Source: a virus
Strand: one strand, 5' to 3'
DNA: 21,961 nt
Virus record (IMG/VR): IMGVR_UViG_3300027123_000011
Coordinates: 1 to 21,961 of that record
Positions 2,082 to 21,961 of this stretch are shown piece by piece. Numbering within the stretch: position 1 is the first letter of the stretch; the number at the start of each line of letters is the position of its first letter. Both the position numbers and the translations under genes were made by a program. The notes beneath the pieces were generated by a model. The model did not search any database, was not told where the DNA came from, and was given only the letters and a program-made list of their open reading frames with translations.

Positions 2082-3485
2082 ATGGGAATTCTGGACATTT
2101 TTAATAGAAAAAAATCGATTCAAAACGAATCGAATACGGTCCTGGGCCAGTTGCAACTCGGTAACCAGGTGCTGTACGGAACCTCGCAAAAGGGGCAACC
2201 GACTCAGCAATTACTGTACGTCACTACGTCGAGCACGACGACCGCTGGTCGAACGCTCGATATGTCTGCTCTGACTCGTAATTCGACCGTGATGGCGTGC
2301 GTTGGAGCGAAGGCTCGAACCTTGGCGCAGTGCGGCATTAGCATTATGTCGAAGCAAGACGACGGCACATTTGTTGACGCGATCAAAGATCCGTCGGTCG
2401 GTGCACGGGATAAAGCAAAGGCCAAGCAAGTCATGAATTTGCTAATGAACCCGAACAATTTCCAAAGCGCGTACGAGTTTTGGTATCAGTGGTGCATGTG
2501 GCAGGATTTGGCTGGCGAATCGTTCACGCTGTGGTGGCGTAAGGATAAAGCGGACTCGATGCAGACTCCGCTGGAAATGTATAACCTGGACGCGACGCTT
2601 ATCACTGTGGTGCTGACGCCTGCTCGTTATCCGTCGTATCGGTTGTCGACGCCTTCGTATGGATTCAGCAAAGATGAACCGCTGGACGCGCACACGGTCA
2701 TGCACATTAAAGAGGCCGCATGGCAGGGTTCGTCTGGTTTTAACAAAGGTATTTTGGCAACGGAATTGGTCGCGCTCGATCAGGACATTGATATTTACGC
2801 CAACTTTATTATGCAGAACGGCGCAAAGCCGTCTGGTATTTTCTACACCGATCAGGTAATTCCTGATGCAAAGTTCAAGGAAATTGCGTCACGAATCAAG
2901 GAAACCTGGAACGCGATGACCGGCAGTCGTGCGGTTGATCCGAGCAAGGCTGGTCAAGGTATGTTGCTCGACCAAGGCATGAAATACTCGGCAATCGATA
3001 TGCTGACTCTGCAAGATGCCGAAGCCGCCGCCCTAAAAGAGCAAACCATGAAGCGAATCTGCGGTTTGTTTGGAGTGCCGCCTGCAATGATTGGTATTGC
3101 CGACCAAAAATATAATAATACGCAAACGATGCTGGATGAGTTCCACAAAACGACGATGTATCCCACCGTCATTAACCTGGAGCAAAAACTCAAACAGCAT
3201 TTGTTTAAGGGCTATCCGACTCTGTGTGTGCGGTTCGATACAAAGGACTTTTTAAAGGGTGCGCCCCTGGATCAGATGAATTTCGTGTCGGCTGGCGTTA
3301 AGGCCGGCATTATGACTCCGAACGAAGCGCGGGAATATCTGAACATGGCAGAGCACGAGGACGGGGACGAATTGTCGAGTGGTGGTGGCGGTGGCGATGG
3401 CCCGATTCCTGGGACTTCGCCTCAAGATACTGGGGGCGGCGGCGGGAATCAGCGTAGTCGGATAAATATCGGGGCAAAACAATGA
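2082..3485 (+). CDS. Phage portal protein, HK97 family
   Basis: A 467-residue portal subunit; twelve copies form the ring at the unique head vertex through which DNA passes. The start MGILDIFNRKK is typical of the family, as are the core stretches around residues 205-250 (HIKEAAWQGSSGF, then IMQNGAKPSGIF) and 320-365 (RICGLFGVPPAMIG, then NNTQTMLDEFHKTTMYP). The C-terminus (about 425-467) is a low-complexity Gly/Pro/Asp tail with runs of glycine, a common disordered portal tail. The GGGGGTC ribosome-binding site just upstream and the 30-base gap after the terminase support the ATG at 2082. The stop overlaps the next small gene by four bases. Confidence 0.95.
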   Translation: MGILDIFNRKKSIQNESNTVLGQLQLGNQVLYGTSQKGQPTQQLLYVTTSSTTTAGRTLDMSALTRNSTVMACVGAKARTLAQCGISIMSKQDDGTFVDAIKDPSVGARDKAKAKQVMNLLMNPNNFQSAYEFWYQWCMWQDLAGESFTLWWRKDKADSMQTPLEMYNLDATLITVVLTPARYPSYRLSTPSYGFSKDEPLDAHTVMHIKEAAWQGSSGFNKGILATELVALDQDIDIYANFIMQNGAKPSGIFYTDQVIPDAKFKEIASRIKETWNAMTGSRAVDPSKAGQGMLLDQGMKYSAIDMLTLQDAEAAALKEQTMKRICGLFGVPPAMIGIADQKYNNTQTMLDEFHKTTMYPTVINLEQKLKQHLFKGYPTLCVRFDTKDFLKGAPLDQMNFVSAGVKAGIMTPNEAREYLNMAEHEDGDELSSGGGGGDGPIPGTSPQDTGGGGGNQRSRINIGAKQ

Positions 3486-3697
3486 ATCGCCTAAAAATGG
3501 CCCTTGCAATTTTGACTTCACAAATAAAGGGGTCCGATGTTACACTCCCAGTCATAGAAAACCCCCATACGATAAAAGACGACAATCAATCTATTCATAA
3601 CGGGGTGGTTAATGAAAAATCTAACGCTGATTTGCGAAGCACAGGTGAAACTGTCGCCGTCCGCAGACGAGGCCGCAAACCCAAGCGGCAAGATTGA
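3482..3697 (+). CDS. Small basic-tailed hypothetical protein between portal and protease
   Basis: A 71-residue ORF starting at an ATGA overlap with the portal stop, with GGGGC about eight bases upstream, the same style of ribosome site as its neighbours. It fills the otherwise empty 126 bases between portal and protease, then runs 86 bases into the protease gene in another frame. The protein has a short hydrophobic start, a polar middle, and a strongly basic C-terminus (RRRGRKPKRQD) resembling an AT-hook core. Small phage proteins ending in RRGRP/RRGRK-type tails are common in head gene clusters, but I cannot name a family. The overlap means it could still be a chance ORF; the coupled start argues for a real gene. 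Confidence 0.5.
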   Translation: MNRLKMALAILTSQIKGSDVTLPVIENPHTIKDDNQSIHNGVVNEKSNADLRSTGETVAVRRRGRKPKRQD

Positions 3698-4439
3698 GGC
3701 CCGAGTCACCACCTGGGGTGCTCGTGAAGGCGAGGACGGTCGTCGATTCAATTATCAGCCGGAAGGCTTCGCCGATTGGGCAAAAGAGTTTGCGGAGAGC
3801 GATAAACCTTTGCCAATGTTCCTGAATCACAATGACCACGGAATGCCGATGGGAGAGTGGACGGAGTTCAATTTCGATGATGAAGGAATGACCGCATCGG
3901 GTCGTTTGTATTTGAATACCGTCGGCGGCTCGGATTTATACAACATTCTGAAAGAGTCGCCGAAAATGTTTGGCGGTGTGTCTGTGGGTGCGTATGCGGA
4001 GGAAGCGCATTACGTCGATGCTGATGGCAATCCGTTCCCGCCTGGGCCTGATGGGACGATGTGGAGCAATCCCGAATTCGATTACGAAAAAGCATTTTTT
4101 CAAATCGTCAAGGGTGGATTGCGCGAGGTGTCGGTCGTGATGTACCCGAACAACCCAAATGCTGAAATTCAAAAACTGGAGTATTTCACCGCTAATGGTG
4201 AGATCGACCTTCGAGTTTTGGAACGATCCCTGCGAGATGCCGGGGTTTCAAAGCAGAATGCGGTCACTGCCGCATCTGTATTCAAACGTGTGATGGAACA
4301 GCGAGATGCCGTTGCATTGCCGGTTGAAAATGCGCCGAGTCGGAGCGATTCTGATGCGGAAGTGACCGAGGCCGACGAACTGCTTGCCGCACTTGAGTTG
4401 CGTCAACTGTCTGAGGCATTATCAAAACGTCTTAAATAA
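3612..4439 (+). CDS. HK97-type prohead protease
   Basis: A 275-residue serine protease that cleaves the delta domains of capsid subunits during maturation. The core spans about residues 25-190. The likely catalytic His is H73 in LNHND and the likely Ser is S124 in GVSVGAY. The following strand REVSVVMYPNNPNAEI (171-186) matches the family's conserved 'EvSvVxxPaNpxA' segment. The C-terminal 85 residues are charged and helical, ending in LSEALSKRLK, and may act as a scaffold-interacting tail. The GGGGTGG ribosome site supports the ATG at 3612, although the upstream small ORF overlaps this start. Position directly before a capsid gene with a delta domain fits the role. Confidence 0.93.
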   Translation: MKNLTLICEAQVKLSPSADEAANPSGKIEARVTTWGAREGEDGRRFNYQPEGFADWAKEFAESDKPLPMFLNHNDHGMPMGEWTEFNFDDEGMTASGRLYLNTVGGSDLYNILKESPKMFGGVSVGAYAEEAHYVDADGNPFPPGPDGTMWSNPEFDYEKAFFQIVKGGLREVSVVMYPNNPNAEIQKLEYFTANGEIDLRVLERSLRDAGVSKQNAVTAASVFKRVMEQRDAVALPVENAPSRSDSDAEVTEADELLAALELRQLSEALSKRLK

Positions 4440-4450: not shown

Positions 4451-5794
4451 ATGTCGATGGAAAAAGTGCTCGAAAAAGTGGACGAGATTAAAGCGTCCAA
4501 CCTGGAAGAAATCGCCAAAGTGGAAACCAAGGTCGCCGAGACTGTGGAATCCGTGAAGGCCGAATTCACCGAAAAAGTGGCCGCGCTCGAAGCGAAAGTC
4601 TCTGCGATTCAAGTGCCTGAATTGATCCGCGCCCCTGCGAAAACCGTCCGTCAGGACGTAAACCGCATGGTCAAGGAACAACTGCGTAACTTCTACAAAG
4701 AGAACAAGCGCGTTCATCAAGAAATCAAACTGTTCGAGTCTACCGATCAGTACGATGCTTATTTGAATGAAGCGTCGACCCTAACTGGCTCTGGTGCTGG
4801 CATTGGTGGCCGTACTGCGTACGATCCCGTGTTCCACAAACTGCGTTTGATGAACCCGATGCGTGGTTTGTCTCGCAACGTCTCTACCGATGGCGCAACG
4901 TATCAGTTCCGTGCAAAAATCGGCAACGCTGGTGCGGCCTGGGGTTACGCAATTCAAAATAACGGCGCGGCAACAACTGAAGCCACCAGCATTTGGCAAT
5001 TAAACCTGAAAGACGTCAACGTGCAATTCCCGATCCGTACTGCGGCTCTGGATGACATCGACGGCTTGGATGCAAACGTCGTTGATGACATGCTCCAAGA
5101 ATTCAGTCAGGTGGAGGGCCAATCGATGATCCTCAACTCCGATCAGGCTGGCACTACCACCACCGCTTACGGCGGCACTGACGGCCTGCGTGGTCTGAAT
5201 AGTTATCCTGGTGCGAATGCTTCGTACGCTGGCGGTACTATTAGCACTGCGGCCTTCGGCAACTCTGGTACTGCGGCATCTGATGGTCTGCATAGCATCG
5301 CTACGTATGACCAAGCAACCACTAACGGCTTTGGCTCTGCAAACCTCATCACGTTTGGCGACATTGTGACGTTCATTCACAGCCTGCCGCAACAGTACTG
5401 GAGCAACGGCAACTCGTTTATGATGAGTCCGTTGGCCCTGGCTGGCCTGCGTGGTCTGGTGGACGATAACGGCACTCCGGTGTTCGAGCGTATGTCTCCG
5501 TTGGTGTATGACGGCATCGTGGGCAAATTGTTGGGCTTCGACGTTCGCGTTAACGCCTACTGCGACAGCCCCGTTGGGCCTGCTGGCTCTGCTGGCACGA
5601 CCTCGCTGTACCCGATTTATTTCGGTGACTTTACTCGTGGTCATACCATCGTTGATCGTCTCAACATGGTTCTGCGTCGCTACGATCAAACGCAACCAGG
5701 ATTTATCACATACTATGGCGAAAAACGCCTGTGCTCGTCTGTGGTCGATCCTTTCAGCATCATTCGCTATCGTTCGACTGCGACTGCGGCTTGA
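4451..5794 (+). CDS. Major capsid protein 1, HK97 fold with N-terminal delta domain
   Basis: A 447-residue shell protein. Residues 1 to about 100 are helical, Lys/Glu-rich and coiled-coil-like (heptads such as VEKV/VAETVESVKAEF), the usual delta scaffolding domain cut off by the prohead protease. The HK97-fold part begins around EASTLTGSGAGIGGRT (107-122) and contains LDDIDGLDANVVDDM (200-214), GGTDGLRGLNSYPG (241-254), HSLPQQYW (310-317) and a C-terminal PGFITYYGEKR (416-426). These blocks recur in the same order in the next gene. The cleavage site is probably between about 95 and 107 but cannot be fixed by eye. Strong ribosome site; a terminator follows the stop. Confidence 0.93.
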   Translation: MSMEKVLEKVDEIKASNLEEIAKVETKVAETVESVKAEFTEKVAALEAKVSAIQVPELIRAPAKTVRQDVNRMVKEQLRNFYKENKRVHQEIKLFESTDQYDAYLNEASTLTGSGAGIGGRTAYDPVFHKLRLMNPMRGLSRNVSTDGATYQFRAKIGNAGAAWGYAIQNNGAATTEATSIWQLNLKDVNVQFPIRTAALDDIDGLDANVVDDMLQEFSQVEGQSMILNSDQAGTTTTAYGGTDGLRGLNSYPGANASYAGGTISTAAFGNSGTAASDGLHSIATYDQATTNGFGSANLITFGDIVTFIHSLPQQYWSNGNSFMMSPLALAGLRGLVDDNGTPVFERMSPLVYDGIVGKLLGFDVRVNAYCDSPVGPAGSAGTTSLYPIYFGDFTRGHTIVDRLNMVLRRYDQTQPGFITYYGEKRLCSSVVDPFSIIRYRSTATAA

Positions 5795-5809
5795 TAGAGC
5801 AAAAGAGTT

Positions 5810-5833
5810 GCGGGGCTTCGGCCCCGCGCTTTT
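5810..5833 (+). terminator. Rho-independent-type terminator between the two capsid genes
   Basis: A perfect 7-bp GC stem, GCGGGGC paired with GCCCCGC (5810-5816 and 5821-5827), is closed by a TTCG tetraloop and followed by GCTTTT. It lies 16 bases after the first capsid stop and 22 bases before the second capsid start. The T-run is short, so termination may be partial, which would lower transcription of the second capsid gene and everything downstream relative to the first. Confidence 0.75.
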
Positions 5834-5855
5834 AACTTAATAAGGATTCGACGAA

Positions 5856-6878
5856 ATGAGTGCAAACCAAAAAATTATTGATGCGATGAAATTGTCTCTC
5901 GCCGAGGGACGTATGGTCACTGTGGATTTAAGCGAAGCATCGACGATCACTGGCTCTGGTTTGAATATCGGGGGCCGTACTTATTTCGACGACGCCTTTG
6001 CAAAATTGCGTTACGCAAACCCGTTCCGCATGGGTGCTCGTGTGATTAAAACGCCGAACAATTCTGCTGTGCAGTTTGTTGCAAAAACCGGTAATGCGTT
6101 GAATCAGACGAACCCGTGGGACTTTACGCAGTCTCCGAATACTGGAACGCCTGGGACTGCGACGACGACTTGGCAGTTGCCGACTCGTATCCTGCAAGCA
6201 ACTTTGCCGATTCGTATCGCGGCGATGGATGACATTAACGGCTTGCAGGCTGAATTGCTGGAGGACTTGAATTTGGAATTCGCCGAGGCCGAAGGTAACT
6301 CAATGGCTGTTAATAACGATCAGTCTGGATCGTCTACAACGACGACTGGCGGTACGTATGGTCTCCGTGGCCTGGATATGTATACCAGTGCGGCGTCGAG
6401 CGCATACGGCACATCTGGTACGGCTATCACTAACGGAATTCACTCGATTGCGACTGTTTCCCTGGCTGGTGCGACGGTGACGTATAACAAAGTGGTTGAT
6501 ATTGCTAATGCTTTGCCTTCGCAATACTGGGCTTTGCCGACGACGGCGTGGTTTATGACTCCGACGATGATTCAGACTCTGCGTCAGTTGAAGGACAGTC
6601 AAGGTTTGCCGCTGTTCTTGGAATTGGGCGAGCCGGGAGAGGGTGGTGCGGTTGGTTCTATTTTTGGCTGGCCTGTAATACCAAACCCGTTTATGTCGTC
6701 TACGTTCCCGATTTATCTGGCGAACTGGAATCGTTTTCTAACGATTGCCGATGTGGAGGAAATAAACATTCAGATGATGGAGCAAACCGCCCCTGGCTAT
6801 GTGACGCTGTATGCAGAAAAGCGTGTCGCAAGTACGGTGCGCAATCCGTTCGCTGGTGTTCGCGCAAGTGCCGCCTGA
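5856..6878 (+). CDS. Second capsid protein, HK97-fold paralogue lacking the delta domain
   Basis: A 340-residue protein plainly related to the preceding capsid protein. Shared blocks in order: EASTITGSGLNIGGRT (27-42), IRIAAMDDINGL (119-130), GGTYGLRGLDMY (165-176), NGIHSIAT (193-200), LPSQYW (220-225) and PGYVTLYAEKR with RNPF (313-323, 329-332). The aligned start is offset by 80 residues: this copy has only 26 residues before the first shared block, so it lacks the coiled-coil scaffolding domain. AAGGA nine bases before the ATG supports the start. A role as a minor, perhaps vertex (penton), subunit is inferred by analogy with the T4 gp23/gp24 pair. It could instead be a co-assembling second coat protein. 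Confidence 0.9.
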   Translation: MSANQKIIDAMKLSLAEGRMVTVDLSEASTITGSGLNIGGRTYFDDAFAKLRYANPFRMGARVIKTPNNSAVQFVAKTGNALNQTNPWDFTQSPNTGTPGTATTTWQLPTRILQATLPIRIAAMDDINGLQAELLEDLNLEFAEAEGNSMAVNNDQSGSSTTTTGGTYGLRGLDMYTSAASSAYGTSGTAITNGIHSIATVSLAGATVTYNKVVDIANALPSQYWALPTTAWFMTPTMIQTLRQLKDSQGLPLFLELGEPGEGGAVGSIFGWPVIPNPFMSSTFPIYLANWNRFLTIADVEEINIQMMEQTAPGYVTLYAEKRVASTVRNPFAGVRASAA

Positions 6879-6889
6879 TGGGGTGAAGC

Positions 6890-7546
6890 ATGGCAGTTGA
6901 AAACCTAACGCTCGCGCAATTTTTTGCAAACAATCGGGGTCCGTATAACTACGCAAAGATCGAGCAGATCGGGCGCGATGTTGCGACTCCGTGGCTTACG
7001 TTGTCGGAGTGTACGGAGCAACTGAACCTGTTTGATGACGAATCGCAGGATACGTACATCAATTCGCTGGAGTTGGCTGTACGGATGGCCGTCGAGGATT
7101 ATCTCGGCATGGCTATTTTTGCGACTCAGTATCGTACTTATTATGCGAACCTGGGTGTGTATAACACCGAGGTCTTTTTGGACTTGCCAGAGGTGTCGCA
7201 AGGGTCGGCTGGCGTAACGATTGATACGGTGGAGTTCTATGGGGCGGACTCAAATACGATCCCGGTGCTGATTGACCCGACCGAATATTCGTACGATCCT
7301 ACGGGCAATCGTGTGATCCTAAATTCGATCCCAAATAACCTCAATCAGTTTGTTGCAAACCCGATTGTGGTCACTTATACGCAAACGGCAAATACGCTGG
7401 CGTCGTACCCGGTGATAAAGCAGGCGGGGCTGTTATTGCTGACGCACCTGTATAACAATCGCTCGGATACGACTGTGGAACGCCTTAATCAAATTCCGTT
7501 CGGCATTGCCGCTTTGCTTCGTCCGTACAAACCGCTGGTGATGTAA
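6890..7546 (+). CDS. Head-tail connector (adaptor), HK97 gp6-like
   Basis: A 218-residue adaptor expected to dock under the portal ring. The N-terminal half is helical (residues about 30-75: TLSECTEQLNLFDDE, then ELAVRMAVEDYLG), the middle carries beta strands with YDPTGNRVIL, and the C-terminus VIKQAGLLLLTHLYNNR (172-188) followed by IPFGIAALLRPYKPL (201-215) is the classic signature of gp6-like/phiE125 gp8-type connectors. GGGGTGAAG precedes the ATG and the gap after the capsid gene is only 11 bases. The last base of its TAA stop is the first base of the next ATG (TAATG). Confidence 0.9.
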   Translation: MAVENLTLAQFFANNRGPYNYAKIEQIGRDVATPWLTLSECTEQLNLFDDESQDTYINSLELAVRMAVEDYLGMAIFATQYRTYYANLGVYNTEVFLDLPEVSQGSAGVTIDTVEFYGADSNTIPVLIDPTEYSYDPTGNRVILNSIPNNLNQFVANPIVVTYTQTANTLASYPVIKQAGLLLLTHLYNNRSDTTVERLNQIPFGIAALLRPYKPLVM

Positions 7547-7890
7547 TGGCCATCGTCCGATACGAAAACCTGGACGTTAATAATGTGACCAACGGCACGG
7601 ATGCTGTGGGGCAATATACGACGACTATTACAAAATGGTTTTCGACTCGTGGGCTGGTGCACGATGTGGCAAATTCGTTGCGAATCTCTGAGCGTTATCG
7701 GGTTTACACTGACTTGGTGAATATCACAGTCAATTACACGCGCAATACTAAAGAGATGGTCGATAACCAGAATCTGTACAGTATTACATGGCGCAATTTT
7801 GACTGGCGAATCGCTGATGTGCGCGAATCGAATGATCGCCAAAAAGTGACGTTCCTGTGCTATCGCAACGACCCCGAGGTGCCGGTGTGA
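7546..7890 (+). CDS. Head closure / head-tail joining protein
   Basis: A 114-residue, beta-rich protein in the position of HK97 gp7 / SPP1 gp16-type stoppers, which plug the connector after packaging. The ending, with YSITWRNFDWRIADVRESNDRQ (in two blocks, about 78-99) followed by a KVTFLCYRN strand, matches the head closure pattern in which a 'Y.I..V...D' strand leads to a basic strand. The N-terminus is not the usual 'MxAGxLRxRV' form, so assignment rests on C-terminal pattern and gene order. Coupled to the upstream gene by TAATG and to the next by GTGA. Confidence 0.72.
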   Translation: MAIVRYENLDVNNVTNGTDAVGQYTTTITKWFSTRGLVHDVANSLRISERYRVYTDLVNITVNYTRNTKEMVDNQNLYSITWRNFDWRIADVRESNDRQKVTFLCYRNDPEVPV

Positions 7891-9673: not shown

Positions 9674-10162
9674 ATGAATTCATTTGCAAACGCTCTGGGT
9701 AAAGAGTTCGTAAAAAATAAGGATGCGGTACGGGTTCGCTCATTCACTATGGGCGGTCATACATTCAAGGTTCGGGTTCCGCTGACTGTGGAATTCGAGG
9801 CGATGCAAATTCGCATGAAAGAGGTCGACGAGGCAAAGGTCGAAAAGTATTACGCCGAATTGACTGCGGAAATGCCAAAGGTTCGGGAGGAATTGCCAGA
9901 GGATACGCAGGTCGAAATCACGGAAAACGACATTGTGATCGATGGCCGATCCATGCGCGAAGCGGCTCGTAACAAATACATCGTCGAAAATCGAATTACG
10001 GAAATGTTCAAATTGCTCGTGCCCGAGGAAAAGGGGTTCGATATGCAGGCGATTACGTATTCGATGATCGAGGAATTGTTCCCGTTTCCGATCCAGATGC
10101 AGGTAATGGAGGAAATCGCTCACGTTGTTTCGCCGAACTATCAAGAGTCGCGGGGAAAATAA
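9674..10162 (+). CDS. Tail assembly chaperone, lambda gpG-like (unshifted product)
   Basis: A 162-residue acidic helical protein immediately before the tape measure, where lambda gpG sits. An N-terminal beta portion (RVRSFTMGGHTFKVRVPLTVE) is followed by long charged helices and MIEELFPFPIQMQVMEEIAHVV near the end. Such chaperones coat the tape measure until tube assembly. The gene ends in the slippery run GGGAAAA followed at once by TAA, so most ribosomes stop here and a minority shift into the next frame. Assignment is strong because of the frameshift and position, although sequence conservation in this family is low. Confidence 0.85.
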   Translation: MNSFANALGKEFVKNKDAVRVRSFTMGGHTFKVRVPLTVEFEAMQIRMKEVDEAKVEKYYAELTAEMPKVREELPEDTQVEITENDIVIDGRSMREAARNKYIVENRITEMFKLLVPEEKGFDMQAITYSMIEELFPFPIQMQVMEEIAHVVSPNYQESRGK

Positions 10163-10509
10163 CGGGGTCAGTTCGTCGGCAGGTCAAAGCGTATTTGACG
10201 GCTCACGGCACTGACCCTGATTCGGTCGATGAGGAACGGTTCACGGACATTTGTATTATGTGGGCCGATGGGGTAATTGGTAACCGTGGCATCCTCGAAG
10301 TGCTTGGCTCTTTGACGGGGGCCGTCTACAATTACATGAGGTCGGAAAACCAACGGGCGTACAAGTTAAATGACATCATTCCGAGAGCGCACGACTACAT
10401 TTACCCGCCTTTGACTGAGGAACAGAAAAAGGCAAAGGTCAACGAAAGTCTGCTGTCGTATTTGAAGGCAAAACCAAACGTCCCACAAAAACTGTTCGGG
10501 AAGGGGTAA
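9674..10509 (+). CDS. Tail assembly chaperone fusion, lambda gpGT-like, made by -1 frameshift
   Basis: The product joins 9674-10159 to 10159-10509, giving 278 residues: all 162 of the short form plus 116 new ones. The -1 frame is open from the slip site to the TAA at 10507-10509. It starts I-T-G-S-V-R-R-Q-V-K-A-Y-L and contains RFTDICIMWADGVIGNRGIL, which fits a T domain that would bind tail tube subunits. The T part has no good start of its own: the only early candidate is a TTG at 10195 with a weak, distant AGG. The ratio of G to GT is functionally important in lambda. The gap to the tape measure is three bases. Confidence 0.85.
10153..10159 (+). other. Programmed -1 ribosomal frameshift heptamer GGGAAAA
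   Basis: In the zero frame the codons are CGG-GGA-AAA-TAA; the heptamer G-GGA-AAA fits the X-XXY-YYZ rule, differs from the lambda G/GT site (GGGAAAG) by one base, and is followed directly by the stop. I see no convincing downstream pseudoknot. Confidence 0.88.
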
Positions 10510-10512
10510 GCG

Positions 10513-12417
10513 ATGGGAATGTTAGCAAGGCTCGGTGTGGTTCTTGGCCTGGATACGGCAGAGTTCCAAAAAGGGCTATCTGGGGCCAAAAAATCGCTCG
10601 ATCAGTTTGCCCAACAAATCCCGACTGTGGCAGGTGTGGCCGTCGCCGCTTTCACGGCGATGACGTACAAGGCTTTGCAATATGCCGATGCGATTGCGGA
10701 TACTGCAAAGGCCAACGACGTTGCTATCGAATCCGTCCTGGCTCTTTCAAAAGGGTTGCAACAAAACGGTGGCGAGGCTGAAAACGCTGGGAAACTGCTG
10801 TCGTCCTTTACAAACAAAATTGATGAGGCCGCGCAAGGTGGTCTGGATGCTCAAAAGACGTTCGCTCGACTTGGCGTGTCTCTTAAAGATTTAGGGTCGT
10901 TAGGCATACAGGATTTGTTCGATAAGACGGTCAAATCTATTGCGGCGATGGAAGATCCGATCAGCCGCAATGCGCTGGCGATGAACGTATTCGGCAGGGC
11001 CGCAAAAGGGGTTGATTTTGTTGGATTAGCCGCTGACTCAAAAGAGGCTCGTGCTGAGTTTGCTGAATATGCCGCCGCTGTGCAAAAGGCCGCAGACCTT
11101 AACGACAAACTTGCCGCCGCATCCGAAAAAACATTGCTGAAATTTACTACTGCGGTTGCGCCTGCGTTGTCAGTAGTATTTGATGAATTAAATAAATCGG
11201 GTGGTGTTCTTGACAAAATTTCAAGCGGGTTTAAATTCTTTTTGGAAAACATGATTTTTGGGTTCCGTATTTTGACGGATGTAGTCAAAAATACCATCAT
11301 CATGTTTGACCAACTGGGTAAATATTTAGGTGATATTTTCACTTTAAATTTTGCCACTGCCGGCAAACGGTTTGATGAATACATGGCTCGTTCACGGGCT
11401 GTGACTGAGGAAACAAAACAATTCGGCATCAAACTGTTTGGCATGGGGCCGGAGGAAAAGAAAAAACCAACAACGGCTGTTGGCCGTCAGGTAAAAGAGG
11501 CCGTCGATCCGGAGGCTGAACGCAGAAAAAAAGAGGCCGAACGCCTACGTATTGCTTTAGAAATGGCGAGGCAAATATCGGCTGAGTACGAACGTCAATC
11601 GCAGTTTGAATTGGAGCAAGTAGAGCGTCGAGGCAAATTGCTTGGAATGACTGCGAAGCAACGCGAGATCGAGGAAGCGGTTCTCGCTGTGCGTGATCGT
11701 TCAAGCAAACAACAAACTGATATTGAGGACAAAATTGCCGACGCAATTATTAAGCGCGAAACCGAACTGGCTGAAGAATTGCGAAAACAAAAACAGATGA
11801 TTGAGGATCGCACGGAGTTTTTTGTCGAACAAACTCGTCGTGCAATTACTGCTCAACAAGAACAACAGAATTCGTTTTTGTACGGGTGGGAAATGGCGTA
11901 CAAACAGTTTGCCGAGGATTCAGAAAATTATTCTAAATTAGGTCAGCAGTATTTCGATACGATGGCTAATGCAATGACAAATGCCATCACGACTTTTGTC
12001 AAAACTGGCAAATTAAATTTTGCAGACTTTACGCGATCAGTCATTCAGGATTTGATTGCGATTCAGTTGCGTATGCAAGCGATGCAGTTGTTCAAAATGG
12101 GTATGTCTGCACTTGGCTGGAGTATCCCTGGCGTTAGCGCAAAGGCTGGCGGCGGTATGGTTAGCGGCAACATTCCTTATATGGTGGGCGAGAATGGCCC
12201 GGAGTTATTTATCCCGCAGGGGGGCGGCTCAATCGTTCCGACAAACCGGCTTGAATCCTCAATGGGTAATGCGCCGAGCGTGGTTTATAACGGCCCGTAT
12301 ATCGAAAACATGAGTGCTATTGACACACAGTCGGCGGCACAGTTCCTGGCAAAAAACAAAATGAGCGTGTGGTCGGCAAACCAGTCGGCGTCGCGTTCTG
12401 TACCGACGAGCAAATAA
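10513..12417 (+). CDS. Tape measure protein
   Basis: A 634-residue tail length ruler threaded through the tube, possibly released into the host envelope at infection. The N-terminal part has a hydrophobic segment (VAGVAVAAFTAMTYKAL, about 36-52); a second hydrophobic stretch lies near 240-265. Residues about 330-450 form a highly charged Lys/Glu/Arg/Gln coiled coil. The C-terminus carries lambda-type landmarks: VKTGKLNFADFTRSVIQDL (about 495-513) and MVGENGPELFIPQGGG (about 557-572). At roughly 0.15 nm per residue the tail would be near 95-100 nm. Start ATG 10513 has GGAAGGGG upstream; an in-frame ATG at 10519 is also possible. Confidence 0.94.
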   Translation: MGMLARLGVVLGLDTAEFQKGLSGAKKSLDQFAQQIPTVAGVAVAAFTAMTYKALQYADAIADTAKANDVAIESVLALSKGLQQNGGEAENAGKLLSSFTNKIDEAAQGGLDAQKTFARLGVSLKDLGSLGIQDLFDKTVKSIAAMEDPISRNALAMNVFGRAAKGVDFVGLAADSKEARAEFAEYAAAVQKAADLNDKLAAASEKTLLKFTTAVAPALSVVFDELNKSGGVLDKISSGFKFFLENMIFGFRILTDVVKNTIIMFDQLGKYLGDIFTLNFATAGKRFDEYMARSRAVTEETKQFGIKLFGMGPEEKKKPTTAVGRQVKEAVDPEAERRKKEAERLRIALEMARQISAEYERQSQFELEQVERRGKLLGMTAKQREIEEAVLAVRDRSSKQQTDIEDKIADAIIKRETELAEELRKQKQMIEDRTEFFVEQTRRAITAQQEQQNSFLYGWEMAYKQFAEDSENYSKLGQQYFDTMANAMTNAITTFVKTGKLNFADFTRSVIQDLIAIQLRMQAMQLFKMGMSALGWSIPGVSAKAGGGMVSGNIPYMVGENGPELFIPQGGGSIVPTNRLESSMGNAPSVVYNGPYIENMSAIDTQSAAQFLAKNKMSVWSANQSASRSVPTSK

Positions 12418-13099: not shown

Positions 13100-13737
13100 A
13101 CGTCATTACGCCGGTCGATGGGACAAACAACATTCGTTATGCTGATTTTGTGCGTGTAACAACGCCGTCGGCAGAGTATCGGTTTGCCACCACGCCGATG
13201 GCCATTAGTGTGCCTGCGGTTGATCCGTTGCCGTTTGATGCTGTGGGCCAACTGGTAAAGGTCGGCGAGTCTCAGCGCGACATTAAGAGTACGAGCAACG
13301 AGACAACGGTGTCGTTCGTGGGTATCGACACGGCAATGCTTGGGTGGGTTCTCGGACAGGAAATCAAGGGGTCGCAAATTGAAATGTGGCACGGGTTTTT
13401 CAATACCGATGGCCAGTTGATTACGACGGGCGGCACGGGTGGGCTGTATAAGTTTTTCACCGGATATATTTCGTCGTTCTCAATTTCCGAACAGTGGATG
13501 GAGGAAGTCCGAGCGTTTGCTGGAATGATTACTGTCAGCGCGTCGTCGATTCAGATGATCCTGCAAAACCGTGTAGCGGGTAGATATACCAATGACAACT
13601 CGTGGCAGTTTTTCAATCCTGGCGATACGAGCATGGATCGAGTTGCGTTCGTATCAACAATAAACTACCGCTTCGGTCGGCAAGGTGGTGGCGCACCAGC
13701 GGTCGTGCAACCACCAAGACTTCAATCGCTTGAATAA
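13096..13737 (+). CDS. Minor tail / hub-like protein (DUF2163-like pattern)
   Basis: A 213-residue protein with strands typical of tail hub proteins. STSNETTVSFVGIDTAMLGWVL (about 58-79, in two blocks) and IEMWHGFFNTDGQLI (about 95-109) recall hub proteins in which a strand pair is followed by 'GxxD..G.li'. The C-terminal GRYTNDNSWQFFNPGDTS (about 160-177) matches the 'RRYxxxxQ...PGDxxF' ending seen in phage hub-like and DUF2163-like proteins. Overlaps the upstream gene by ATGA. A compact inverted repeat, ACCG-CTT-CGGT, lies near 13668-13678 inside the gene. Assignment is by partial pattern and gene order. Confidence 0.62.
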   Translation: MNVITPVDGTNNIRYADFVRVTTPSAEYRFATTPMAISVPAVDPLPFDAVGQLVKVGESQRDIKSTSNETTVSFVGIDTAMLGWVLGQEIKGSQIEMWHGFFNTDGQLITTGGTGGLYKFFTGYISSFSISEQWMEEVRAFAGMITVSASSIQMILQNRVAGRYTNDNSWQFFNPGDTSMDRVAFVSTINYRFGRQGGGAPAVVQPPRLQSLE

Positions 13738-13738
13738 A

Positions 13739-14173
13739 ATGATTCGGCAAGCAACAAAATACGATAAAACACAAGTCATCGAAATGATGAAAGCGTTTCG
13801 GGCTGAAAGTCCGATCAGTGCTTTGTACGCAGAGGACGACCCGGAATATTGGGACGCAATGCTGACAAGCATTTTTGCTGGCCGTGGTGCTGTATTCATT
13901 GAGGATGGCAAAGGGTTACTGTTGTCGATGGTTTATCCGAGCATCTGGAGTGGCAAGGTTTTTGGCCTGCACGAGTTGGCGTGGTATGTGTATCCGCAAC
14001 ATCGTGGGGGGACGACTGGATACCGCCTCGTCAGGGCTTATGTGGACTTCGCCAAAGGGTTGAAAGATTCAGGACGAATTGCGTATTTCACACTCAGCAA
14101 GATGGTTTCCAGTCCTGCAATGAAATACGAAAAACTGGGGTTCAGAAAAGTCGATGAAAACTGGATTCAATAA
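13739..14173 (+). CDS. GNAT-family N-acetyltransferase in the tail tip cluster
   Basis: A 144-residue GCN5-related acetyltransferase. It begins MIRQATKYDKTQVIEMMKAF, the usual beta1-alpha1 start. Motif A lies at ELAWYVYPQHRGGTTGYRLV (79-98), whose RGGTTG is the acetyl-CoA pyrophosphate loop. Motif B ends with MKYEKLGF (128-135), where Y130 is the usual catalytic acid. The ATG at 13739 follows the previous stop by one base; an earlier in-frame start at 13685 would add 18 residues overlapping that gene and is less likely. It overlaps the tail tip gene by 20 bases. Substrate unknown; a virion protein, a host surface component or a host protein are all possible. Confidence 0.9.
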   Translation: MIRQATKYDKTQVIEMMKAFRAESPISALYAEDDPEYWDAMLTSIFAGRGAVFIEDGKGLLLSMVYPSIWSGKVFGLHELAWYVYPQHRGGTTGYRLVRAYVDFAKGLKDSGRIAYFTLSKMVSSPAMKYEKLGFRKVDENWIQ

Positions 14174-18900: not shown

Positions 18901-21900
18901 ATGGCAAATTTAAATGTCACGGTTGTCGATGGCAACAACATCAATGTCCAAGTAACTCCGACGCCAGATCAAGTTATTAACATCGATCGCGGTGTTGCTG
19001 GCAATGGTGTTTCAAGCATTGAGGTAGTTAACGAGGGCGACTACGCTTATCTGCAAATCAATTACACGGACGGCACAATCGAAACGGTTGGCCCAGTTGG
19101 TGTTAGCAGTGAAATCCTAATAAATATCGATGACAACATGGTCAGCATCGTTGCGGTTGCTGACGACCTGACTGTTATCAACACGGTTTATGACAATTTG
19201 GCCGCAATCAATGATGTAGAGGCAAATATGGCCGCGATCATTGCGGCTCCGACTGCGGCATCTGAAGCGGCGGCTAGTGCGGCGGCGGCATTGACCAGTG
19301 AAACAAATGCGGCTTCATCTGCCGCTGATGCTCTGGCGTCTGAAACTGCGGCGGCAAATTCCGCCACATCTGCCGAAAACTCTGCATCGAATGCCGCTTT
19401 GTCTGCGACTGATGCCGATAACAGTGCTGACATTGCCGCGACTCAGGCAAACAATGCCGCGACGTCTGCTGGTGATGCCGCAACGTCTGCCGCAAATGCG
19501 TTGGCGTCTGAAATGGCGGCGGCTACGTCTGAGTCAAATGCGGCTACGTCTGCGGCTAATGCTTTGGCATCTGAAAATGCGGCGGCGGCTTCAGCGGCTG
19601 ATGCACTTGCATCTGAGACTGCGGCGGCGGCATCTGCGGCGGCGGCTTTGGTTTCGGAAACAAATACGCAAACCCTGTTCGACAATTTTGATGAGCGTTA
19701 CCTGGGCGCGTTTAACTCCGATCCGGCAACGGATAACCAGGGCGACCCGCTGATTGTGGGCGCGTTGTATTGGAATACAGTCAACAATGTGATGCGTACC
19801 TATACGGGTACGGCGTGGATTACCGCATACGTTCCGTCTACAAATTTTGTTGCCAAGTCACCAACGGCAACGGATAACGCTGTTGTTCGTTTTGATGGCA
19901 CGACCGGCTACACGATTCAAAATTCTGGCGTCATTGTTGATGATAGCAATAACGTTGCTGGAAATAGTTTCACTGGCGCGTATGTACAGATTGACACGGC
20001 GGCTACTGAAACACCGGCAGTTGGCAAGATGGTTTGGGATGCCGCGCAGGGAACGATTGCGTTTAATGCTTTGAATGATGGCGTTGTGCGTATCGGTCAA
20101 TCGTTGCTGGCTTATGTCACTAATGCTGATTCGGTCACTATCCAAAAGGGGCAAGCCGTTTATTTGTTTGGGGCGCAGGGTGATCGTGCGACTGTAAAGT
20201 TGGCATCGAACAATGGCGATTCGACGTCTGCAAAAACATTGGGGCTGGCAAACCAATCAATTGCGCCTAATGCTACTGGCTTCATCATGTGCCAGGGCGT
20301 TATCGGCGGCTTAAATTTGTCTGGATTCACTGCTGGTGATTCTTTGTATTTGGGATCAACTCCCGGATCAATTACAAACATCAAACAATACGCCCCCAAC
20401 CATTTGGTCTATATTGGCGTGGTTGAGCGTGCAAATGCTGGCAATGGGCAAATTTATTTGCGCGTGCAAAACGGATACGAGTTGGACGAATTGCATAATG
20501 TGTCGGCTCAAAGTCCGACCAATGGACAAACGCTTGTCTACAACTCTGTTAGCGCACTTTGGGAAAAGTCAAACGCGCCTGTTTTGAGTTCGGCAACTGG
20601 ATTGCCGTTGGAAACTGGCGTCACCGGCGTGTTGGCTGTTGTACATGGTGGCACTGGGGCAAACAATGCTCCCGATGCTCGAACAAATCTGGGTTTGGGT
20701 AGCGCGGCTGTTTTAAATGCTGGCGTTGCTGATGGCGTTGCCACGTTGGACGGTAGCGGCACTGTGCCGCTGTCGCAAATCCCCGCATCCTTGCAAGGCG
20801 CATTGAGTTATCAAGGCACATGGAACGCATCAACTAATACGCCGACTATTACATCAAGTGTTGGCTCAAAGGGTTATTACTACGTGGTGAGTGTTTCAGG
20901 TAACACCACTATCAACGGTGTTTCCAACTGGGTCACTGGCGACTGGATCGTTTTCAACGGCTCTGTTTGGGAAAAGATAGATAACACCGATGCCGTCACT
21001 TCAGTAAACGGGCATACAGGCACTGTGGTGCTTGGATATACCGACGTTGGTGCTCCGTCTACAAGCGGAACAAACGCGACTGGAACGTGGGCGATTGATA
21101 TTTCAGGCAATGCGGCAACGGCTGATTTGGCTGACGTAGCAACGGATTTGAATATCAATGGATTGACTCCCGAAACGGCAATTCAATCTAGCGACTATTT
21201 GGTCGTGTATGACGTTTCGGCTGGTGCTAATCGCAAGGCAACGATCAGCGATGCGGCGATTGTTGGGCCGACCGGACCTACGGGAGCAACTGGGCCTGTG
21301 GGCGCGACTGGCCCCGTGGGTCCAACTGGCGCAACCGGCCCTGCGGCAACGATTGCTGTTGGTACGACTACGACTGGTGCGCCTGGAACAACGGCAAGCG
21401 TTACAAATTCTGGAACGTCTGGTGCGGCTGTTTTTGACTTCACAATACCGCGAGGTGATGTTGGGGTTACTGGGCCAACTGGCCCGACTGGGCCGACTGG
21501 AGCAACAGGCAGTCCTGGACCGACTGGGCCAACCGGACCTGTGGGGCCAACTGGAACAGCGGCAACAGTATCTGTCGGAACAACCTCAACGCTAACCGCT
21601 GGTTCACCTGCGACTGTCACAAATAGCGGTACTTCATCTGCGGCTGTTTTTAATTTTGGAATTCCCAATGGGCCAACTGGTGCGACTGGCCCGACTGGAG
21701 CAACTGGGCCAACGGGTAGTCCTGGGCCGACCGGCCCTACTGGGTTGACTGGTAGTCCTGGCCCTACTGGGCCAACTGGGCCAACCGGACCTAGTGGCCC
21801 ACCTGGGCCAACTGGGCCAACTGGACCGACTGGACTTGGATATGCCGGGCTGACATCAACCACATCAATTTCTATTGGGCTTTCATCAAAGACTTTTACG

Positions 21901-21961
21901 GTTAATCAAGCGCAAGGCACAAACGCTTTTGTTGTTGGTCAATATGTTCGTGCCTTTGGCG
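18901..21961 (+). CDS. Long modular tail fibre with alanine-rich stalk and collagen-like repeats (3' end outside window)
   Basis: The frame from ATG 18901 stays open for 1020 codons to the window edge. Order: N-terminal attachment domain (1-90); [15 protein letters not shown] lead-in and alanine-rich coiled stalk (about 90-258); a chaperone/linker-like domain with [18 protein letters not shown] (about 264-281) and [13 protein letters not shown]; a domain with [14 protein letters not shown] (about 322-335); a larger beta domain (about 375-540); the [19 protein letters not shown] module (583-601); a [13 protein letters not shown] domain (about 637-720); three collagen blocks (789-815, 852-887, 924-980) separated by two related 36-residue modules; then the domain starting YAGLTSTTS. 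Such trimeric fibres recognise the host surface. Upstream AAGGGGCG is the ribosome site. Confidence 0.93.
19318..19629 (+). repeat. Heptad-phased 13-residue alanine repeats in the fibre stalk
   Basis: SAA(D/N)ALASE(T/M/N)AAA occurs four times, at 19318-19356, 19486-19524, 19549-19587 and 19591-19629. Spacings of 56, 21 and 14 codons are all multiples of seven, as expected for a trimeric coiled-coil stalk. Confidence 0.8.
21265..21840 (+). repeat. Collagen-like Gly-X-Y blocks separated by 36-residue modules
   Basis: Blocks of 9, 12 and 19 Gly-X-Y triplets lie at 21265-21345, 21454-21561 and 21670-21840, mostly GPT and GAT. The modules between them (21346-21453 and 21562-21669) are each exactly 36 codons, with shared core TNSGTS(G/S)AAVF(D/N)F. 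Coding DNA repeats units like CCNACTGG, so it can misalign. Confidence 0.9.

Follow-up and report, generated by a model that had tools for sequence, protein, structure and literature searches.

In textbooks, HK97-type phages stand for shells whose hexamers and pentamers are built by one and the same protein through quasi-equivalence. The virus record IMGVR_UViG_3300027123_000011 from IMG/VR encodes two capsid proteins in tandem, and only the first has a delta-like N-terminal region, which raises the question of what the second contributes to the head. The window is the whole 21,961-base record and covers the structural region of a siphovirus genome. The first gene (4451..5794, forward strand, ATG start) encodes a 447 amino acid (aa) HK97-fold major capsid protein (MCP), here MCP1. 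It is followed on the same strand by a 61-nt junction (5795..5855) and by the gene for MCP2 (5856..6878, ATG start), a 340-aa second HK97-fold capsid protein that lacks the delta domain. The reading that we favor, with a probability of roughly one half, is that the hexamers consist of MCP1 and the pentameric vertices of MCP2, an arrangement that works like gp23 and gp24 of phage T4 and has an independent origin.

Two paralogous HK97-fold capsid proteins

Both proteins match PF05065 (MCP1 100.6 bits, MCP2 81.4 bits, curated cut-off 24.2) and PHROG phrog_10 'major head protein'. BLASTP aligns them with 129/340 identities (38%) at an E-value of 3e-66, so the ordered motifs that they have in common reflect real homology and not chance. 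The two paralogous capsid open reading frames (ORFs) proposed in a preliminary description of this DNA are thus both present. The MCP2 alignment begins at MCP1 residue ~105, and the EAS(T/A)xTGSG motif is preceded by ~25 residues in MCP2 vs ~105 in MCP1. The preliminary description had put the extension missing from MCP2 at 80 residues; its absence holds, and the alignments and the MCP1 model bring its length to ~104. This region of MCP1 (residues ~1-104, 4451..4762, forward strand; the boundary from alignments and indel map is approximate) is mainly helical by prediction (3-52 and 66-83 in a low-confidence model). Such helical content is as expected for a delta-like domain, which it probably is.

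An AlphaFold2 model of MCP2 built on a 67-sequence alignment shows the HK97 fold (predicted local distance difference test (pLDDT) 75.8, predicted template modeling score 0.74). Its best structural match is the capsid protein of the Rhodobacter capsulatus gene transfer agent (RcGTA; 6tb9_A5, Z 21.4, root-mean-square deviation 4.0 over 256 residues). Many phage capsids and encapsulins come next, with HK97 itself (1ohg) at Z 16.1. The MCP1 model is poor (pLDDT 62.2) and too weak to compare the two proteins residue by residue, but its top structural entries are the same. The sequence profiles of MCP1 and MCP2 both lead to the RcGTA capsid protein as well.

The pair is retained in relatives

Searches of IMG/VR returned 482 relatives for MCP1 and at least 596 for the MCP2 profile. 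The family that carries the capsid pair consists of little-known, mainly freshwater bacterial viruses. MCP2 is present in 141/141 distinct loci that were found through MCP1 and extend at least 300 nt downstream of it. These loci were fetched by MCP1 queries or by the joint alignment, and all retained loci match MCP1, which limits bias from the MCP2 query. Wherever both genes occur, MCP1 precedes MCP2 on the same strand, including at junctions that bear inserts. Loci that appeared to have MCP1 only lie on contigs that end soon after MCP1, and those whose remaining sequence was inspected show the start of MCP2. The frequent loss of the second copy that would speak against a role for it, according to the preliminary description, is therefore not seen, and the other genomes with tandem copies for which it proposed a search exist among IMG/VR contigs and in one isolate.

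The isolate is Methylophilaceae phage P19250A (KX815270), whose genes 5 and 6 are homologs of MCP1 and MCP2 (57% and 54% identical). It is the only isolate in the phage collection with both genes. Gene 6 is annotated 'hypothetical protein', and the capsid duplication is not recognized in the record; in these freshwater phages, a probable shell component goes unseen behind that label. The literature passages naming P19250A, among which its original description is not included, do not describe a second capsid protein. Literature on second MCPs in HK97-type tailed phages, searched mainly outside subscription journals, yielded T4-like gp24 and cases outside the tailed phages and nothing closer. 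Venkman OM43 phage (MT375522, L346), suggested to be a marine variant of P19250A (PMC8163748), was considered as a second isolate and gave no tblastn match to either capsid protein. Its head module (30815-36563) is annotated differently, with a scaffolding protein and one MCP.

Inserts of at least two kinds have invaded the MCP1-MCP2 junction, and MCP2 was left in place each time. One locus (L345) carries an HNH endonuclease gene (PF01844, 7357-7680) with MCP2 behind it. Four others (L218, L228, L237, L322) carry a larger ORF that opens with a GIY-YIG-like motif (MFYTYIHF...FYIGKG), again with MCP2 kept. Six loci (L091, at 5946-6245, L095, L299, L300, L302 and L303) have a conserved ORF of ~100 aa between the capsid genes (MPKPTDxMKAEARRGLDWRKEFGRGGTEVG...) that has no Pfam match. 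In L091 it is in frame and continuous with MCP2 and may be fused to it.

An old duplication under purifying selection

A maximum-likelihood tree was computed from 54 MCP1, 54 MCP2 and 6 outgroup proteins. The outgroups (VW-6S, D14E, Bcep176, K272, MW462191 and RHph_X2_25) are annotated with a single MCP in this place, and VW-6S (L182) is a true single-MCP outgroup. MCP1 and MCP2 each form one clade (Shimodaira-Hasegawa-like approximate likelihood ratio test support 84 and 99), so the tree requires no more than one duplication, placed ahead of the sampled radiation; where exactly the root falls is uncertain, given the long branch to the outgroups. The two sister clades, relative to the single-MCP phages, bear out the duplication that had been proposed. 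The sequences support an origin of the pair by duplication of one HK97-type capsid gene, probably before the family radiated. MCP-based phylogenies of these viruses need to keep the two paralogues apart.

Purifying selection on the two genes is equal: the median pairwise ratio of nonsynonymous to synonymous substitution rates (dN/dS) is 0.110 for MCP1 and 0.112 for MCP2 (534 pairs). MCP2 diverges faster overall, with a mean pairwise identity of 62% vs 69% for MCP1. Duplicated genes are often lost, and MCP2 could on that ground be a redundant recent duplicate on its way out. We rule this out and give it next to no credence: the 141 loci include no loss, the duplication predates the family and dN/dS is 0.11.

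MCP1-MCP2 identity is 41.6% within loci and 41.1% across loci; since the two values are the same, there is no sign of gene conversion between the paralogues. The MCP1 and MCP2 trees disagree in places, and the near-identical MCP1s of two loci (L050 and L052) are paired with quite different MCP2s. Some MCP2s thus appear to have been exchanged between lineages.

A terminator-like hairpin lies between the capsid genes

The junction contains a terminator-like hairpin (5809..5828, forward strand, from hairpin scans) followed by a T-rich tail. Between the MCP1 stop and the MCP2 start it reads TGCGGGGC-TTCG-GCCCCGCG-CTTTTAACTT. This element between the capsid genes is new here. A scan of the window lists it first among 22 terminator-like sites, a total no higher than in shuffled sequence. 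The comparison across relatives is more telling. Of 193 distinct junctions, each taken up to 90 nt and with hairpins scored per sequence, 99.5% have a GC-rich hairpin followed by a T-rich tail, vs 2.6% of shuffled junctions. The same element occurs in only 1.1% of equal-length stretches around the MCP1 frame start and in 1.1% of those downstream of MCP2. The stems vary in sequence and keep their pairing. Consensus folding of a MAFFT alignment of the junctions recovered three pairs only, since the hairpins are out of register, and the per-sequence test was used instead.

Ribosome-binding strength is nearly the same for MCP1 and MCP2, which rules it out as a control of dosage. With a hairpin between the genes and similar ribosome-binding strength, dosage would be set at transcription. 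The junction sequence suggests that MCP1 is made in excess over MCP2 by means of a partial terminator, whose activity is predicted.

Shared and divergent positions of MCP1 and MCP2

Positions were called conserved if at least 85% conserved in both paralogues. By this measure, 71 positions hold the same residue in MCP1 and MCP2, and 15 are fixed for different residues. The turn motif of the long C-terminal beta-hairpin, QTxPG...EKR, is conserved in both (MCP1/MCP2 residues Q413/310, T414/311, P416/313, G417/314, E424/321, K425/322 and R426/323). This hairpin belongs to the region through which capsomers of HK97-fold shells touch their neighbors.

The 71 positions lie across the mature fold, which agrees with a mixed shell in which MCP2 co-assembles within MCP1 hexamers, for example at alternating or fixed positions, while the delta domain of MCP1 scaffolds both. 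Two-component HK97-fold shells are known, going by entry titles, from the Family 2B encapsulin of Streptomyces lydicus (9bje and 9bix). A terminator-like element between the genes, however, speaks against equal amounts of the two proteins, and the exchange of MCP2 among lineages with near-identical MCP1 is harder to accommodate in intimately mixed capsomers. We regard the mixed shell as unlikely, if the most plausible of the alternatives.

Relative to MCP1, MCP2 lacks 8, 6 and ~9 loop residues, after MCP2 residues 176, 205 and 281, and has three extra residues in the E-loop. The first two deletions (8 and 6) fall in the A domain, the lining of the capsomer center; domains were assigned with the MCP2 model and what is generally known of the HK97 fold. 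In three loci (L092, at 6450-7688, L100 and L332), the tip of the MCP2 E-loop carries a ~66-aa beta-type insert (..VGQYITGTGVTAGTTITALGTGTGGTGTYTVS..). L092 and L100 are far from L332 in the tree, yet the inserts are similar and occupy the same E-loop position, and none is found in the accompanying MCP1s. E-loop inserts confined to MCP2 are what a surface-exposed MCP2 would lead one to expect.

They could also mark MCP2 as a minor capsid protein at some other site, such as a capsomer ring beside the portal, or as a surface-varying carrier of inserted domains. Its low predicted dosage and its faster divergence (62% vs 69% mean pairwise identity) agree with such a role. On the other hand, pentamers are the classic minority place for an HK97-fold paralogue, and nothing points specifically to the portal; we find this proposal doubtful, more so than the mixed shell.

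MCP2 could finally act outside the virion, either in assembly (nucleation or size control) or as a separate small shell. The HK97 fold is common to encapsulins, and rudiviruses have a second MCP paralogue that is absent from the virion (PMC10848311). Against this, MCP2 has surface-type insertions at the E-loop, its inter-capsomer motif is conserved and it lies inside the head operon in all loci. A role off the particle seems to us a slimmer prospect again than a special site on it.

MCP2 as a candidate vertex protein

If MCP2 occupies the vertices, the head could be assembled as follows. MCP1 would be the main lattice protein, with a delta domain that, as family knowledge suggests, scaffolds the prohead, and on the same grounds the S78 protease would be expected to cut it. 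Transcripts of the head operon would end in part at the hairpin after MCP1, provided that it is active, leaving less MCP2. MCP2, with the mature HK97 fold kept and the delta domain missing, would make up the pentamers of a shell that is probably T=7, on all eleven vertices other than the portal, at about 55 copies vs about 360 of MCP1; the T=7 and 360:55 estimates come from the genome size of P19250A (38.7 kb) and general knowledge. MCP2 would dock onto MCP1 hexamers through the conserved P-domain hairpin, as a counterpart of T4 gp24 beside gp23 that evolved independently in an HK97-type siphovirus.

The preliminary description had left the choice between a vertex protein and a mixed shell. 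The vertex is the best reading, on indirect evidence: the conserved terminator-like element, the gp24-like short N-terminus, the shortened A-domain loops and the insertions confined to MCP2. The mixed shell keeps the small share given to it above.

Several observations weigh against a vertex role. The conflicts between the MCP1 and MCP2 trees, including L050 and L052, indicate that the pair is not tightly co-inherited. The loop shortening of MCP2 is also compatible with a hexamer. A terminator-like hairpin follows the single MCP in two of the six outgroups (Bcep176 and K272), and the element may long have trailed a major capsid gene rather than serve to set a ratio. In the simplest history, the post-MCP terminator is then old, and the duplicate took its place downstream of it. 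This history weakens the hairpin as proof of a selected ratio, and it still predicts an excess of MCP1.

We hold the wider proposal more tentatively than the vertex role itself, and slightly on the doubtful side: a whole family of small HK97-type siphoviruses may, separately from T4, have come to divide the capsid role between a hexamer protein and a pentamer protein without a delta domain, their ratio being tuned by a conserved attenuator of transcription between the two genes. This would be a second, convergent origin of the gp23/gp24 arrangement. If true, shell proteins came to share out their labor in a small head too, in an evolution apart from that of T4. The pair would offer a simple two-gene system for asking what sets the choice between five-fold and six-fold rings, and by what means a scaffold carried by one partner can template the other.

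Other genes in the window

The head module is otherwise that of an ordinary HK97-type siphovirus, with the capsid pair placed between the protease and head-tail adaptor genes. The window encodes terS (25-384), terL (381-2051), the portal (2082-3485) and a Peptidase_S78 prohead protease (3612..4439, forward strand; PF04586, phrog_80). The next gene after MCP2 encodes a gp6-like head-tail adaptor (6890..7546, forward strand; PF05135, phrog_442). Small head and tail genes and tail proteins, including a lambda-type tape measure (10513-12417), are also encoded.

Two tail ORFs before the tape measure (9674-10162 and 10195-10509) resemble the lambda G/GT-type -1 frameshift pair. A canonical slippery heptamer, G GGA AAA (10153-10159), immediately precedes the TAA stop of the first, and the second is in the -1 frame. 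An ORF among the tail genes (13685-14173) is weakly similar to GNAT acetyltransferases (Acetyltransf_7, 1.1e-3, below the cut-off). A tail-fiber-like ORF (18901-21961) runs off the end of the contig after 1020 aa and contains long Ala-rich and collagen-like GPTGPTG repeats. The antisense ORF at 21195-21863 is a mirror of these repeats.

Comparison with known capsid systems

The closest solved relative of both proteins, by profile and fold, is the RcGTA capsid protein Rcc01687 (PDB 6tb9/6tsu), whose entries name a single capsid protein where two are found here. The S. lydicus encapsulin is, by the titles of its entries, likewise a shell of two HK97-fold proteins, but it is a bacterial compartment and not a phage head, and its identity is 10-12%. 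P19250A has the same pair in the same order as the window. Pseudomonas phages VW-6S and D14E and Burkholderia phage Bcep176 have the same order of portal, prohead protease, MCP and adaptor, but with a single MCP and a small HeH/LEM or other ORF in the place of MCP2.

T4 is the informative comparison. Its gp24 forms pentamers at eleven vertices and loses a propeptide of 10 residues vs 65 in gp23 (PMC9958956), at 55 copies vs 960 of gp23 (PMC5694885). Mutations in gp23 can bypass gp24, and some of these map to the A domain where it forms the intra-capsomer interface (PMC9958956). MCP2 has no Pfam match to the T4 gp23/gp24 family and matches PF05065 alone at E <= 0.001. We therefore do not file it as a gp24 homolog, and suggest a gp24-like way of working without membership of that family. 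The duplication here is independent, in an HK97-type siphovirus with a delta domain and an S78 protease, and the genome of P19250A is 38.7 kb, in contrast to the large prolate head of T4. In both systems there are two HK97-fold paralogues, the second with a much shorter N-terminal region (for MCP2 known from sequence), and the second protein is present in a lower amount in T4 and probably also here. MCP2 fits the T4 pattern as a universally retained paralogue with a short N-terminus, a probable lower dosage, altered A-domain loops and a conserved outer contact motif.
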